Assembly: GCF_025457425.1 (NCBI RefSeq)
Contig: NZ_JAMXIA010000001.1
Coordinates: forward strand, 3,472,001 to 3,536,000
Reading direction: 5' to 3'
DNA length: 64,000 nucleotides
Origin: Chryseobacterium foetidum
GTDB lineage: Bacteria; Bacteroidota; Bacteroidia; Flavobacteriales; Weeksellaceae
Each line of letters starts with the position of its first letter. Positions within the stretch are counted from its first letter, which is position 1. The translations under genes were made by a program, and so were the position numbers. The notes below the pieces were generated by a model, which was given only the letters and a program-made list of their open reading frames with translations, did not search any database and was not told the DNA's origin. This document shows, piece after piece, positions 11,414 through 18,026 of the stretch.

Positions 11414-12709
11414 TTAATTAATTTTCACCTTCCCCGTTACCACATTATCGATCAGCACCGTTTTATACTCCTTCAGCTTTTCTATTTCCTGCTCTTTCAG
11501 CGTGATGACTTTGGCGATTTTTTCGTTGATATTTAATATGTAATCCGAAATTTCATTAATTTCTTCTTCGCTAGACGGAATTAGAACTGAAAAACCAAGG
11601 ATTTTGGTTTCAGAAATTGTTGGTATAGTACTTCCAATCACATTTCTTTCAACCTGCAATTGAAATATATCGCTTTTTAAAAGTTCATACAAATAATCAG
11701 CTTTAATTTGGATTTTCTTCAAAACTAAAAGCTGAGGATTAATTGTAGCTTTTTGAGGCAAATTTTTAACGATGCCAATTTTACCATAGGTTGAGCCTGT
11801 TTTAACAATTAGTATGTCGTTCTCTCTAATTTTAATTTCTGGAGATTCGTTATACTTAAACCACGACAAATAAGAATTACTATTGAATTCCATATTCGTT
11901 TCTTTGATATTTGATGGACTAATCGTTATTGCCCCATCTCCCTCATCAACTAAATCAGCAGTGGTATATCCTCTAAATCCAATTCTACCAAAAGCTGTAC
12001 AAAATGACTTCAACTTCCTCACCTCCCAATGCTCCGGAATTTCCCCAATCCAATCCACACCGCTGTCTTTGAGTTTTACGGTATCATCCAAACCTTTGGT
12101 AACTGCCTTTTGGATGAGGATTTGGCGGCGTTCTTTCAGCAGTTCTATTTCTGTTTGCTTGTTGGCAATCGTTTGGTCTATTTTGGCGGTTTTGTCATCT
12201 AGAAAGGTGGCGATAGTTTGCTGTTCGGAAAGTGGTGGAATCGGAGTATAAGAATATTTCAATTCTTCATAACTGATGTTTTTACCTTCTCTAATTCCAA
12301 CAATACTTAGCTGTAGTTCAGCAATGAATGCTTTGCTTTTAAAAAGAAATTTAAAGTAATTATCATTAATTTCTTTTTGAGATTTTAATACAGTGTAGGC
12401 AGGACTTATTATTCCTTCATATTCAGAATATTCTAATCCTCCTTCAAAAGACCTCAAGCTTATTGCGAAATCACCTTTACAGATAACTTTGAAAGATTCT
12501 AAATTTCCGGTAGGCATAACCATTCGGCTTTCTACCATACTTCTTGGAATCACTCCTTTATCTTGAGTTACAGAAAGCAACTCCAAGTCTGGTTTATTTT
12601 TTACTGAAACATCTTTAAATAAAAACTTTAATTTTAAAATCTCCCATTTATCAGGAATCTCCCCAATCCAGTCCACGCCGCTTTCTTTGTATTTTTCGTA
12701 TCGCTGCAT
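11414..12709 (-). CDS. hsdS: Type I restriction specificity subunit HsdS
   Basis: The DNA-recognition subunit shared by the methylase and restriction complexes. It has 431 residues and two target-recognition domains. Each half starts with the same conserved block (SGVDWIGEIPDKWEILKLK near the N-terminus and SGVDWIGEIPEHWEVRKLK near residue 215) and ends in a coiled coil (around 165-210 and the C-terminus, EKAKVITLKEQEIEKLKEYK-like). The duplication is also visible at DNA level. It lies 3 bases after hsdM. No homopolymer or inverted second hsdS copy is present in the window, so shufflon-type switching is not indicated here. Confidence 0.93.
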   Translation of the reverse strand: MQRYEKYKESGVDWIGEIPDKWEILKLKFLFKDVSVKNKPDLELLSVTQDKGVIPRSMVESRMVMPTGNLESFKVICKGDFAISLRSFEGGLEYSEYEGIISPAYTVLKSQKEINDNYFKFLFKSKAFIAELQLSIVGIREGKNISYEELKYSYTPIPPLSEQQTIATFLDDKTAKIDQTIANKQTEIELLKERRQILIQKAVTKGLDDTVKLKDSGVDWIGEIPEHWEVRKLKSFCTAFGRIGFRGYTTADLVDEGDGAITISPSNIKETNMEFNSNSYLSWFKYNESPEIKIRENDILIVKTGSTYGKIGIVKNLPQKATINPQLLVLKKIQIKADYLYELLKSDIFQLQVERNVIGSTIPTISETKILGFSVLIPSSEEEINEISDYILNINEKIAKVITLKEQEIEKLKEYKTVLIDNVVTGKVKIN

Positions 12710-12712
12710 CGT

Positions 12713-15064
12713 CTAAAAATTTAAGATTTCAGCCAGCAATCCGTCGCCTTCCTGTTCCAACGCCAAAATATCTTTGGTCACATCTTCCAGACTGCGCAAT
12801 GGGGCAGGTTGGTAAAAATATTTATTGAAGCTCAGCTCATAGCCAATCTTTACAGAATCCAAAGCAATCCAGCTTTCTTCGGCATAAGGTTTTACTTCTC
12901 GTAAGAAATAATCCTGTATGTTTTCTTTCAGCGGTATGCTTTCGCTGTCGCGTAAATCACTTTCGGTTTCATAGACCGTGTATTCGCCTTTTTTATCGGT
13001 AGCAAAATAGCCGTAGTAAGCAAGGTCTTTTTCTGTACAACCTAAATAATCAAGCAAATCCGTCAGTTTCTGTCCGCTCAGTTTTTCTGTTTTCTTAACG
13101 ACTTTATCAGCTTCGGCATCATACCAGCTTACGGTATCTAAAATCTGTTTTTTTTCCGAAGCAGACAGTTTGGTTTTGTCGCCTTTCAACACTTCATCCA
13201 CCTTGCTGCCAAATTCATTGAAGTTGTTATAAACCTCTGTTCCCAAAACTTCCATCAGGCGAACCGCCGTTTGGTACAGGCCATCCTGTTTTTCCCAGCT
13301 TTCTTTTTTCAGAAATGCAGACAGCTGTTTTGCATTGATGTTGAGGTCCTGCTTTTCGGCAAGGTCTTCAATTTCTTTTTTATGTTTTTCCAAACCTGCA
13401 TATACTTCCATTCCGTATTTCTCATACAGTTCTTTGGAAAATACAGGTTGTGTCTTATCCCATTTCAAGGCTTCAATTTTCTCTTGGGTAAACTGGGATT
13501 TTAAGCGTTTCGGTCTTTCGATATTGACTTTGTAATAGCCAAAATCGGCATTCTCAAAAACTTTGCTTCCGATATTTCCGGTATCTTTTTTATCTAGTGT
13601 TGAAAGCTCTAAATAACAGTTCAGAATTTCTTGAATATGTTGTTTCGTCAGTTCACAGTTTTTGTTACCGAGATTTTTTCTGAGTTTCTGATACATTTCA
13701 CTCGCATCAATCAACTGTACTTTCCCTTTGCGGTTAGCGGGTTTGTTGTTGCTGAGAATCCAGATGTACGTGGTAATGCCTGTGTTGTAAAAAATATTAT
13801 TCGGCAACTGGATAATCACATCCAGCAAATCATTTTCAATAATGTAGCGTCTGATATTGCTTTCGCCACCGCCTGCATCGCCGGTAAACAGACTCGAGCC
13901 ATTGTGTACCGAGGCAATACGGCTTCCGATGGTATTTTTGTTTGTAATGGCTTTCATTTTATCCACCATTTCCATCAGGAAGAGCAATTGTCCGTCGCTG
14001 CTTCTCGGCACGGCATCGGCATCTTCTTCTTCGCCCCAGTAATTTTTCAGTTTAATGAGAAAACGGTTGTCGATAACATCTTTTCCGTCTTTAATGTATT
14101 TCTGTTCACTCGCCCAGCTTTTTCCATAAGGCGGATTCGACAGCATAAAGTCGAATTTCGTTCCGGCAAATTCATCTGTAGAAAGTGTAGAACCAACCTT
14201 GATATGTTCAGGGTCTTTGCCCTTAATCATCATATCCGATTTACAGATGGCGTAGGTTTCGTCATTCACTTCCTTCCCAAAAAGATACACCGATGTATTG
14301 GTCGCTTTGATTTCGCCCTCTTCATCGGTAATGAACAGTTCAGATTCTGTCAGCATTCCACCCGTTCCGCAAGCAGGGTCATAAATGGTAATCACCGATG
14401 GTATTTTATCTTTAATCGGGTCAAAAACCATATGCGTCATCAGGTCGATAACTTCCCTCGGCGTATAGTGTTCTCCAGCTTCCTCGTTATTTTCTTCATT
14501 AAATTTCCGGATCAGTTCCTCAAAAACATAACCCATTCCCAAATTGGTTAGCGCAGGAATTTTTCTTCCGGCAGTATCCAGTTTTTCAAAAGGCGTCAAA
14601 TTGATATCCGGCGAAGTGAATTTCTCCAAAACATCCAGCAACACATCTTTGTTCGCCATATGCTTGATTTGCGCCCGAAGCTTGAACATCTCAATAATTT
14701 CCTGCACATTGGCACTGAAACCATTAAGGTAATCTTCAAAATTCCCCAACAAAATCTGCTGGCTGTTAGTAGCCGAACCGTGAAGACTTTGCAGTGTCCA
14801 TTCGCTGGTATTATAGAATACGTACTTGGAAGCAGCGGTCATTCCTTTGTCGTCCCATTCGGTAAACTTCATTGTTTCCTTCTGGAAAGCGACTTCTTCT
14901 AAAACGTGTTGTTTGGTAGGTTCCAACAAAGCATCCAGTCTTCGCAAAACAACCATTGGCAGGATGACATCCCTATATTTTCCTCTTACATAGACGTCTC
15001 TTAGGCAGTCATCGGCAATACTCCAGATGAAGGAGACGAGTTTATTGTGTACAGCGTGGTTCAT
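12713..15064 (-). CDS. hsdM: Type I N6-adenine methyltransferase subunit HsdM
   Basis: Methylates adenine in the HsdS target. It has 783 residues, longer than classical HsdM of about 500, because of an extended C-terminal part after the catalytic core (about 600-783), a form common in Bacteroidota. An N-terminal HsdM_N helical domain is at 1-140, the AdoMet motif I YDPACGTGGM is near 229, and the catalytic NPPYGKSW is near 310. It is the first core gene of the operon. The + strand 306-codon ORF inside it (13631-14551) is a shadow. Confidence 0.95.
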   Translation of the reverse strand: MNHAVHNKLVSFIWSIADDCLRDVYVRGKYRDVILPMVVLRRLDALLEPTKQHVLEEVAFQKETMKFTEWDDKGMTAASKYVFYNTSEWTLQSLHGSATNSQQILLGNFEDYLNGFSANVQEIIEMFKLRAQIKHMANKDVLLDVLEKFTSPDINLTPFEKLDTAGRKIPALTNLGMGYVFEELIRKFNEENNEEAGEHYTPREVIDLMTHMVFDPIKDKIPSVITIYDPACGTGGMLTESELFITDEEGEIKATNTSVYLFGKEVNDETYAICKSDMMIKGKDPEHIKVGSTLSTDEFAGTKFDFMLSNPPYGKSWASEQKYIKDGKDVIDNRFLIKLKNYWGEEEDADAVPRSSDGQLLFLMEMVDKMKAITNKNTIGSRIASVHNGSSLFTGDAGGGESNIRRYIIENDLLDVIIQLPNNIFYNTGITTYIWILSNNKPANRKGKVQLIDASEMYQKLRKNLGNKNCELTKQHIQEILNCYLELSTLDKKDTGNIGSKVFENADFGYYKVNIERPKRLKSQFTQEKIEALKWDKTQPVFSKELYEKYGMEVYAGLEKHKKEIEDLAEKQDLNINAKQLSAFLKKESWEKQDGLYQTAVRLMEVLGTEVYNNFNEFGSKVDEVLKGDKTKLSASEKKQILDTVSWYDAEADKVVKKTEKLSGQKLTDLLDYLGCTEKDLAYYGYFATDKKGEYTVYETESDLRDSESIPLKENIQDYFLREVKPYAEESWIALDSVKIGYELSFNKYFYQPAPLRSLEDVTKDILALEQEGDGLLAEILNF

Positions 15065-15083
15065 TTAATTGTATATCATTATA

Positions 15084-15105
15084 AGCACTCGATTCAAAGA
15101 GTGCT
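15084..15105 (-). promoter_or_regulatory. Hairpin between the 84-aa gene and hsdM
   Basis: Perfect 7-bp inverted repeat AGCACTC / GAGTGCT with 8-base loop, in the 51-base gap ahead of hsdM. There is no T-run on the minus strand, so it is a weak terminator at best; it may be a regulatory palindrome for the restriction operon. Confidence 0.4.
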
Positions 15106-15115
15106 GTTTCATTTG

Positions 15116-15370
15116 TTAATCTTTACTGTCCTGCCACATCTGCACCCATTCCTCAAAATAGGCACGCAGACTGTCAGAAGTTTGAATATAGTATTTTACA
15201 GGATCATTTGCAAACGATTTGAGTTCCGTTTCATGAGTTTCTTCATTGTAGATGGGTAGAAATATATTGTTTAATTCAAAAATAAGATTGCCTCCCTGTT
15301 TGAGGAACTCCATATGAATGGCTTTTACGTCAAGAAGATCTATGGCAATACCGCCGTTATGCATGATCAT
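15116..15370 (-). CDS. Small hypothetical protein upstream of hsdM (84 aa)
   Basis: An 84-residue soluble acidic protein beginning MIMHNGGIAIDLLDVKAIH and ending EEWVQMWQDSKD. I do not recognise a family and see no helix-turn-helix, so it is not an obvious controller protein. It precedes hsdM in the same orientation with only a hairpin between. It could be the first gene of the restriction operon or an independent gene. Confidence 0.5.
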   Translation of the reverse strand: MIMHNGGIAIDLLDVKAIHMEFLKQGGNLIFELNNIFLPIYNEETHETELKSFANDPVKYYIQTSDSLRAYFEEWVQMWQDSKD

Positions 15371-15449
15371 AGCTTAGTTTTTATATTGAGAAATCAAAGA
15401 TAATTAAAAATTCATTTTCACCATTGAGGGAAAGCTGAAATCAGAAACT

Positions 15450-16343
15450 TTATCCATTTATAAAATCTTTAATCAACCCCAACAATTCCTCCTCATTCAT
15501 TACCGCAATACTCAAAGCAGAAATCTTTTCCATTTTCTTCGGACCAGCTCCGGTGCCTACCAGTACCAGATCTGTATTTTTTGAGATACTCGTGTTAATA
15601 TCTGCACCGCAGTCAAATAAAATCTGGGCTAACCTGTTTCGCTGTTTCGGAAAGGCAGAAAACTCTCCGGTAATCACCACTTTTTTAGAATAGAAATAGT
15701 GATTTTCATACTTGGGTTTTTCAGCAGGATAAATCAGTGAAGAGTCAATCTTCTTGAATGAAAAAGTGTTGGTGAAAAAATCTGTTTTTGAACTTTCTTT
15801 TTTCACTTTATGATCAGGCATAAAGCGGTTGTTCAGCTTAAAAAACTGATTCATCTTCAGGAAAATAAATCCACAGACTTCAGCATCATACTGAGCATTA
15901 TGATGTTGGTTTTCACTGAAATTCAGACTGAACAGTTCGGCTACGGTAGATAATTTGTGATTATTCAGGTAGGGAAACAGCTGTTTTGAAAGCTGTAGAG
16001 TACAGATGCCATGATAATCGGGTAGGGTCATTCCATAAAAACGAAACAGACTTTCCAGAATCGGAAACTCTACCGTACATCCATTGTGTGCAACAACAGT
16101 TTCACCCTTGATATACTGTCGGATTACATTCCACACTTCTGGAAATGCCGGAGCATTACACGTGTCTTCCGCAGTCAGTCCGTGAATCGAACTGTGAAGA
16201 GCCAGATAAACATTATCAGGTGGCTGCACCAGATAATTTTTGGAATAAATAATGCTTCCGTTTTCAAATACCGCAATCCCGATACTGCAGACCGAACAGG
16301 AATCATTGTTGGCTTTTTCAAAGTCTATAGAGGTAAATCTCAT
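15450..16343 (-). CDS. DnaQ-like 3'-5' exonuclease with C-terminal BRCT domain
   Basis: A 297-residue protein with an N-terminal DEDDh exonuclease domain like the epsilon subunit of DNA polymerase III and a C-terminal BRCT domain like that of DNA ligase. Exo motifs: DFEKA (Exo I, residues 7-11), VVAHNGCTVEFPIL (Exo II), and HNAQYDAEVCG with the H-x4-D pair (Exo III). The BRCT region is about 215-297 (KKVVITGEFSAFPKQRNRLA, then TDLVLVGTGAGPKKM). This architecture is known in bacteria and probably acts in DNA repair. It stands alone, with the palindromic repeat array upstream. Confidence 0.85.
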   Translation of the reverse strand: MRFTSIDFEKANNDSCSVCSIGIAVFENGSIIYSKNYLVQPPDNVYLALHSSIHGLTAEDTCNAPAFPEVWNVIRQYIKGETVVAHNGCTVEFPILESLFRFYGMTLPDYHGICTLQLSKQLFPYLNNHKLSTVAELFSLNFSENQHHNAQYDAEVCGFIFLKMNQFFKLNNRFMPDHKVKKESSKTDFFTNTFSFKKIDSSLIYPAEKPKYENHYFYSKKVVITGEFSAFPKQRNRLAQILFDCGADINTSISKNTDLVLVGTGAGPKKMEKISALSIAVMNEEELLGLIKDFING

Positions 16344-16533: not shown

Positions 16534-17078
16534 CGTCAGTTCGAGTGTTTTTCGCAGCGCAGCGTAGAAAAATGTATCGAGAACCAGTGAACAGACGACC
16601 CTTTTGTTAAACACAAACTTCTCGATACGGTTTTCTTCAAAAACCTACTCGAAGTGACGCGACCATCAAAACATTGAATATCCGCGCGTCAGTTCGAGTG
16701 TTTTTCGCAGCAAAGCGGAGAAAAATGTATCGAGAACCAGTGAACGAACGAAACTTTTGTAAAACAACAACTTCTGGATACGGTTTTTGTCAAAACCTAC
16801 TCAAAGTGACGCTACCATCAAAATATTGAATATCCGCGCGTCAGTTCGAGTGTTTTTCGCAGCGCAGCGTAGAAAAATGTATCGAGAACCAGTGAACAGA
16901 CGACCCTTTTGTTATACACAAACTTCTCGATACGGTTTTCTTCAAAAACCTACTCGAAGTGACGCTACCATCAAAATATTGAATATCCGCGCGTCAGTTC
17001 GAGTGTTTTTTGCAGCATAGCGGAGAAAAATGTATCGAGAACCAGTGAACAAACAACCTTTTTGTAAAACAACACTTC
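16534..17078 (+). repeat. Palindromic element array, left block (copies 1-3 and half of 4)
   Basis: Copies at 16534-16659, 16687-16811 and 16839-16964, each about 126 bp, plus the left half of a fourth at 16992-17078. Each starts CGTCAGTTCGAGT and ends ACTCGAAGTGACG, which are inverted repeats with one mismatch; inside are the further inverted pair TATCGAGAA / TTCTCGATA. Copies are separated by about 27 bases, also conserved (ATCAAAATATTGAATATCCG), so the full period is about 152 bp. The fourth copy is broken off after its centre, just before the GIY-YIG gene. Confidence 0.93.
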
Positions 17079-17111
17079 TAAAATATCTGTAAAATTTTAT
17101 TATTTTTAGAT

Positions 17112-17405
17112 ATGCAAATTTCATTTGTTTATATATTACTCTGCTCCGATAACACTTACTACACTGGTGTAACCGAAAATGTTTACAAACGTTTTGATGA
17201 GCATCAGGACGGAAAACATTTTGGTTCATACACTTATTCACGACGTCCGTTACAATTGGTCTATTTTTGTCAGTTCATGGATATTGAAATGGCGATTGCA
17301 TTTGAGAAAAAAATCAAGAAATGGTCACATGCTAAGAAAAAAACTCTAATTGAAGGAAGATATGACGATCTACCTAATCTCGCAAAAAAGAAGTTTGATA
17401 AATAA
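17112..17405 (+). CDS. GIY-YIG nuclease family protein (UvrC/YhbQ-like)
   Basis: A 97-residue stand-alone GIY-YIG endonuclease domain. Visible motifs: VYILLCSDNTYYTG (the GIY and YIG equivalents), the conserved Arg in VYKRFDEH, and the metal-binding Glu in AFEKKIKKWSHAKK. Such small proteins are abundant in Bacteroidota and their biological role is mostly unknown. Here the gene lies inside an array of palindromic elements and replaces the right arm of one of them, which suggests a link between nuclease and repeat. The start ATG at 17112 follows the half element by about 30 bases. Composition resembles that of neighbouring chromosomal genes. Confidence 0.88.
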   Translation: MQISFVYILLCSDNTYYTGVTENVYKRFDEHQDGKHFGSYTYSRRPLQLVYFCQFMDIEMAIAFEKKIKKWSHAKKKTLIEGRYDDLPNLAKKKFDK

Positions 17406-17446
17406 TTCATCAACAGCCGCTAACATCACAGTATTGATTCCCCACG

Positions 17447-18026
17447 TCAGTTCGAGTGTTTTTCGCAGCGCAGCGTAGAAAAATGTATCGAGAACCAGTG
17501 AACAGACGACCCTTTTGTTAAACACAAACTTCTCGATACGGTTTTCTTCAAAAACCTACTCGAAGTGACGCCACCGTCACTACATCGATTTCTACGTCAG
17601 TTCGAGTGTTTTTCGCAGCACAGCGGAGAAAAATGTCTCGAGAACCAGTGAACAGACGACCGCTTTGTAAAACAACAACTTCTCGATACGGTTTTCTTCA
17701 AAAACCTACTCGAAGTGACGCGACCATCAAAATATTGAATATCCGCGCGTCAGTTCGAGTGTTTTTCGCAGCATAGCGGAGAAAAATGTATCGAGAACCA
17801 GTGAACAGACGACCCTTTTGTTAAACACAAACTTCTTGATACGGTTTTCTTCAAAAACCTACTCGAAATGACGCTGCCATCAAAATATTGAATATCCGCG
17901 CGTCAGTTCGAGTGTTTTTCGCAGCGCAGCGTAGAAAAATGTATCGAGAACCAGTGAATAAGCGATAATTTCGTAAAACAACAACTTCCCGATAAGGTTT
18001 TATGTCAAAACCTACTCGAAGTGACG
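17447..18026 (+). repeat. Palindromic element array, right block (copies 5-8)
   Basis: Four more copies of the same element: 17447-17570, 17595-17720, 17748-17873 and 17901-18026. The terminal inverted repeats are intact in all, with single changes (ACTCGAAATGACG in copy 7). The centres vary more than the arms. ORFs of 75-100 codons through these copies are repeat artefacts. The following 238 bases up to the DKNYY gene hold nothing I can name. Confidence 0.93.

Follow-up and report, generated by a model that had tools for sequence, protein, structure and literature searches.

The closest described system to the one reported here is that of REP sequences and their RAYT (TnpA-REP) transposases, in which one gene, encoding a Y1 HUH transposase (PF01797), is flanked by copies of a dispersed intergenic palindrome and gene-less copies lie elsewhere. 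REPs are hairpins of 20-40 bp with a GTAG motif, and those of E. coli need a mismatch in the stem (PMC8266576). CGTC-tagged REPs, short hairpins on which the CGTC tag is left unpaired, have been reported in Bacteroidetes among others, and are said to be without a dedicated transposase (PMC3733652). Among small GIY-YIG proteins, E. coli YhbQ and B. subtilis YazA have been assigned to the Slx1 family (PMC7017083), and Slx1 itself cuts branched DNA close to the branch point (PMC6902002). The searchable papers describe no link between these UPF0213/YhbQ/YazA proteins and palindromes: open PubMed Central yielded no account of palindromes accompanying GIY-YIG genes (subscription papers and preprints were beyond the scope of the search, and an earlier description is possible), and the word stem 'palindrom' is absent from a 2006 survey of the GIY-YIG superfamily.

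The DNA analysed here, referred to as the window, is a stretch of 64,000 nucleotides from Chryseobacterium foetidum. Between positions 16534 and 18026 it carries eight element copies of approximately 127 bp, all in one orientation (+ strand) and with a period of approximately 153 bp, around a single small nuclease gene, as had been claimed in the initial annotation. Copies 1 (16534..16660, 127 bp), 2 (16687..16812) and 3 (16839..16965, used as the query copy) are complete, and are followed by copy 4 (16992..17078), which retains its left arm and some of the loop but lacks the right arm. The GIY-YIG nuclease gene (17112..17405, + strand) is next, followed by a spacer of the array type (17418..17444) that resembles those between other copies, and then by the complete copies 5 (17445..17571), 6 (17595..17721), 7 (17748..17874) and 8 (17901..18026), the last with a weaker inner stem. 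The terminal inverted repeats are as first described, with CGTCAGTTCGAGT at the left end of the element and ACTCGAAGTGACG or a near variant at the right end of complete copies. The original length of 126 bp also stands (126-127 bp in complete copies), but the 27 bp given for the spacers was slightly off, since most measure 26 bp and the one separating copies 5 and 6 measures 23 bp. Relative to dinucleotide shuffles, the complete copies gave fold z scores of -4.5 to -5.7 (copy 1, -5.7; copy 3, -5.2; copy 8, -4.5), and copy 4 showed no significant fold (z = 0). In the genome as a whole there are 20 element matches at 5 places, and the gene is present only at the window place. The sequence between copies differs from array to array, so that what the arrays have in common is the palindrome alone. 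At two of these places (G000:C1:3718514-3719427 and 389119-389253) and among the loci L103-L132, several solo elements or arrays directly follow hairpins that have T runs and resemble intrinsic terminators.

Since the sequence that follows the gene, CGCTAACATCACAGTATTGATTCCCCA, is similar to the array spacer CGCTACCATCAAAATATTGAATATCCGCG and leads into copy 5, the gene stands where the right arm of copy 4 would be. The initial annotation was therefore right that the gene takes the place of this arm, but the arrangement does not hold as a general rule. A scan of one genome per species yielded 80 relatives of the gene, all in Bacteroidota. In 13 of them (L034, L041, L046, L051, L052, L054, L057, L058, L059, L067, L072, L081 and L094) the gene sits within the loop of an element, preceded by the left arm and followed by the right, and about 17 have it between complete copies; further relatives lack one arm, as in the window, the right arm being the missing one in several. 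Only loci with inner and outer motifs on both sides were counted as arm-enclosed, by a token search that is loose for distant subfamilies. In the 13 loop-gene loci the arms look like the terminal inverted repeats of an insertion sequence, and a solo element corresponds to the two arms minus the gene; the solo palindromes would then be gene-less derivatives, comparable to MITEs. Unlike an insertion sequence, the system has no transposase of a known class. In several loci, the window included, the right arm is missing, and no target duplication was found among the species compared, which are highly diverged. The loci with the gene between complete copies fit less well with a simple transposon bounded by terminal repeats.

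The gene encodes a protein of 97 aa with one GIY-YIG domain (PF01541, E = 1.1e-15); this was the only domain found, with no transposase domain, and NCBIfam gave no named family for the protein. It matches PDB entry 1zg2 (E 3.8e-11), and the catalytic residues Y7, Y17, R27, H31 and E65 are invariant in an alignment of 28 diverse relatives. The predicted structure (pLDDT 90) was ranked by Foldseek closest to the UPF0213 proteins 1zg2 and 1ywl and then to Slx1 of Slx1-Slx4, with UvrC and I-TevI weak and below these. By Pfam, PDB sequence match and fold the protein belongs to the same family as UPF0213, YhbQ and YazA; judged from its sequence and model it is a small single-domain nuclease of the UPF0213/Slx1 type that retains its catalytic residues and may cut branched DNA. 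GIY-YIG enzymes cut hydrolytically and are not known to transfer strands, so that a simple transposase is unlikely. A GIY-YIG endonuclease within a mobile element is also found in the Penelope-like elements, but these are eukaryotic and combine it with a reverse transcriptase in one protein, whereas the window protein has PF01541 only. Among close relatives dN/dS is 0.01-0.05 and synonymous divergence is high to saturated, which points to a gene of long standing that selection has maintained; one relative (L033) has a frame-disrupted gene. As with RAYTs, purifying selection is combined with at most one close gene copy per sampled genome. The second GIY-YIG gene of the window genome (L022, G000:C1:1994086-1994346) is 48% identical to the window gene, and a palindrome unlike the window type is located just upstream of it (GGCTTCGACAAGCTCAGCC TGACA ... 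TGTCACCCTGAGCTTGTCGAAGG).

The element was first pictured as a simple hairpin; it is indeed a palindrome, but its predicted shape is a cloverleaf with side hairpins and a four-way junction. The outer stem, GTCAG-TTCGAGT / ACTCGAA-GTGAC, contains a G.G mismatch that is retained in 89 of 99 elements, a kept mismatch being a further likeness to REPs, and the central stem is TATCGAGAA / TTCTCGATA. Across 32 loci the two segments that border the central stem, on its left and its right side, fold into hairpins with mean energies of -7.2 and -3.7, compared with -2.6 and -0.9 for shuffled sequence (z -13 and -14), and the central loop of the same loci did not stand out in folding against shuffled sequence. 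The stems of the side hairpins change by lineage and still pair (GTTTTTC/GAAAAAT, GATTTGC/GCAAATC and GATTTTAT/ATAAAATT). At the outermost pair, 74 elements have C-G and 14 have T-A; one position further out, only 25 of 99 elements have a Watson-Crick pair, which is the level expected by chance, and pairing stops exactly at the outermost pair. The element shares CGTC at one end with the CGTC-tagged REPs, but here it is paired with GACG, the terminal pair covaries, and a dedicated nuclease is present. It differs from the REPs of RAYTs in being a cloverleaf of 127 bp with CGTC...GACG ends and no GTAG, and in forming tandem arrays of one orientation.

The association between gene and palindrome was assessed without reference to any motif, by searching for a direct repeat linking the 400 bp before and the 400 bp after the gene. 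Such a repeat was found in 62 of 78 loci and in only 2 of 240 control positions from the same loci (Fisher 4e-48), leaving 16 of the 78 with no linking repeat. More distant paralogues in Chryseobacterium have flanking repeats in 22 of 61 cases compared with 0 of 61 controls, and loci drawn from the whole phylum have them in 21 of 27. The flanking repeats are structured, with a median fold z of -4.3 as opposed to -0.2 for control segments. A close copy of the gene is present in 8 of 60 sampled Chryseobacterium genomes; all 8 have elements within approximately 200 bp of it and all 8 carry at least 10 elements, a number reached in 5 of the 52 others (p 5e-7). The initial annotation had proposed a parallel with REPs and RAYTs, and had named as a check the proximity of such genes to the palindromes and, as evidence that would speak against the parallel, palindromes in genomes without the gene. 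The proximity is borne out by these counts, which support the parallel for a GIY-YIG enzyme that may cut or move the elements. Palindromes without the gene occur in part: at least one element is found in 15 of the 52 genomes that lack a close gene, some with 15-21 matches, and one of them (G035) has 15 elements and no GIY-YIG match at 1e-6. Copies without a gene would be no surprise if, like REPs, they are remnants that are not autonomous; the distribution of REPs is resembled by the 4 further places in the window genome and the many in others. In one genome (G041) the gene surrounded by an array of the window type (L236, 3250-3960) is a small helix-turn-helix-like one that runs in the opposite direction, and not a GIY-YIG gene. 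A decayed GIY-YIG gene was considered for the gap in this array and rejected, as the gap is occupied by that unrelated gene. Spread by plasmids is ruled against by the finding of just 5 distant matches among 72,556 plasmids.

We lean towards the explanation that the GIY-YIG gene and the palindromes are one genetic system, in which the nuclease recognises and nicks its own cloverleaf elements and host processes copy, lose or multiply them. As a single strand or an extruded cruciform, the element would form the cloverleaf with its four-way junction and two side hairpins; the nuclease, which is related to Slx1, a nuclease of branched DNA, and has a single domain, would recognise the structure of its own family and nick close to the base of the element. 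The nick could then be processed by repair, replication or recombination of the host, with elements copied, lost or tandemly multiplied as a result. The data show the association, the matched subfamilies and palindrome families, the conserved structure, presence or absence between species and strong selection on the enzyme; recognition, cutting and spread through cutting are inferred from these. The joining step would have to be borrowed from the host, since strand transfer is not known for GIY-YIG enzymes. The autonomous member would be the gene-bearing unit, either arm-gene-arm or the gene between copies, and gene-less palindromes would be its dependants, as REPs are of RAYTs. The system is most likely REP/RAYT-like in logic and unrelated in its enzyme, a hydrolytic GIY-YIG nuclease (PF01541) in place of the Y1 transposase. 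Intergenic palindromes of this type recur in Bacteroidota without a known maker, for which a conserved, matched nuclease is a candidate, and the widespread small GIY-YIG proteins of the UPF0213/YhbQ type would gain a candidate substrate. It would also suggest that the logic of one retained nuclease and a population of hairpins has arisen twice, with unrelated enzymes.

The strongest rival, which we consider unlikely, is that the palindromes are parasitic or useful to the host and are made by other means, and that the nuclease resolves their cruciforms and protects the chromosome with no part in spreading. Recognition of the structure is common to both explanations, and the Slx1-type fold with a predicted four-way junction and the very strong purifying selection would suit a protective enzyme. 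So would a long stay at one site, and in Flavobacterium the cassette of gene and palindromes is found at one locus in nine species, which indicates that it is not very mobile. An enzyme that acts in trans, however, need not sit in the element or move with it, yet this gene does, and arrays persist in genomes from which the gene is absent.

That the nuclease itself drives the spread of its elements, as in the system we favour, is consistent with the pairing of GIY-YIG subfamilies with palindrome families of their own. The palindrome of the window family is GTCA-G-TTCGAG ... CTCGAA-G-TGAC, several Flavobacterium relatives (L068, L071, L076, L083, L084 and L100) have variants of TCTCGACT(G/C)CGCTCGA-CC-TGACA ... 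TGTCA-(AA or CC)-TCGAGCG.AGTCGAGA, and a second Chryseobacterium subfamily (L173 and the second gene of the window genome, L022) has GGCTTCGACAAGCTCAG-CC-TGACA ... TGTCA-CC-CTGAGCTTGTCGAAG. When compared by eye and without statistics, these appear to share a plan of a paired arm, a mismatch of 1-2 nt and a TGACA/TGTCA box. Matched pairs of enzyme and palindrome would allow a direct test in vitro by cutting and swapping. It is possible, and we suggest it only tentatively, that they represent a class of mobile element of its own in bacteria, with cloverleaf palindromes spread by their cognate single-domain, Slx1-like GIY-YIG nuclease and many matched pairs across Bacteroidota. Such a class would be the GIY-YIG counterpart of REP/RAYT, and a large set of bacterial palindromes that are now orphans would have a dedicated enzyme for the first time. 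In a distant genus of this phylum, GIY-YIG genes (L269, L270, L272 and L276) lie beside palindromes of the form TTCGATACG...CTACTCAGTGACCG.

This pairing also bears on the quite improbable alternative that the palindromes are spread by other machinery, such as Y1 transposases of the RAYT/IS200 type, and that the GIY-YIG gene is among them by chance. Elements are found without the gene, and Y1_Tnp genes are present in 54 of 60 Chryseobacterium genomes; but the association extends over a number of palindrome families that are unrelated to one another, and it follows the GIY-YIG subfamily; moreover, gene copies at differing genomic sites keep their palindromes. A Y1 transposase as the mover was rejected, as three genomes with no Y1_Tnp match (G024, G055 and G019) nonetheless carry 18, 7 and 9 elements, respectively.

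Tandem structured repeats with strong fold energies adjoining a small nuclease gene could also be read as a transcribed structured RNA, either a processing signal or similar to a type III antitoxin, with the GIY-YIG protein acting on RNA. We regard this as very improbable. Wobble pairs within the stems, which are small in number, show no excess of G.U (15, against 20 A.C), which favours DNA rather than RNA; an Rfam search gave no match, and the Slx1-type relatives of the protein are DNA nucleases. In type III toxin-antitoxin systems, moreover, the tandem RNA repeats are only upstream of the gene, whereas here the repeats are on both sides of it and are dispersed alone elsewhere.

The genes flanking the cassette represent dozens of unrelated contexts. 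In five Chryseobacterium species (G011, G018, G024, G046 and G057) it is located beside alaS, and the close copies in the window species, G003 and G043 are elsewhere; at alaS itself, further species show a solo element or repeats of other kinds, or have neither. In G041 the 3' side of alaS (L131) carries other repeat families, TTTGTCATTCCGTAGGAATCTA... and CTTTAGCC...GGCTAAAG, where relatives have the cassette. A gene pair conserved in 157 of 173 Chryseobacterium genomes has an intergenic slot of variable content, which holds a window-type element in six species, a decayed one in a seventh (G003) and other palindrome families in many. In eight species it is empty and measures 28-51 bp with short coding ends included. 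The slot is an insertion hotspot, and its occupied and empty states show gain and loss and do not tell the mechanism, the species concerned being too diverged to define insertion boundaries or a target-site duplication. A free-standing homing endonuclease that cuts element-free alleles at preferred intergenic sites, with the element copied in by repair from an occupied chromosome, is the least probable explanation. In its favour are the homing endonucleases among GIY-YIG enzymes (PMC1564403) and the occupied and empty states of the slot; against it, the protein consists of a Slx1-type domain alone and has no DNA-binding modules, the elements lie at many unrelated sites, and multi-copy arrays are not produced by homing alone.

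At the window locus, the array is adjoined by an exonuclease-like gene, beside which are genes that by translation resemble type I restriction-modification subunits (window positions 11414-16343). When other species were searched for the orthologous locus, a close relative of this exonuclease gene turned up in G014 alone, with no window-type elements near it. At the intergenic slot (L280-L319; G043:C12:54053-54960), at least three unrelated palindrome families are represented, namely the window type, AACCATTAAG...CTTAATGGTT and TTAACGCAAAG...CTTTGCGTTAA.
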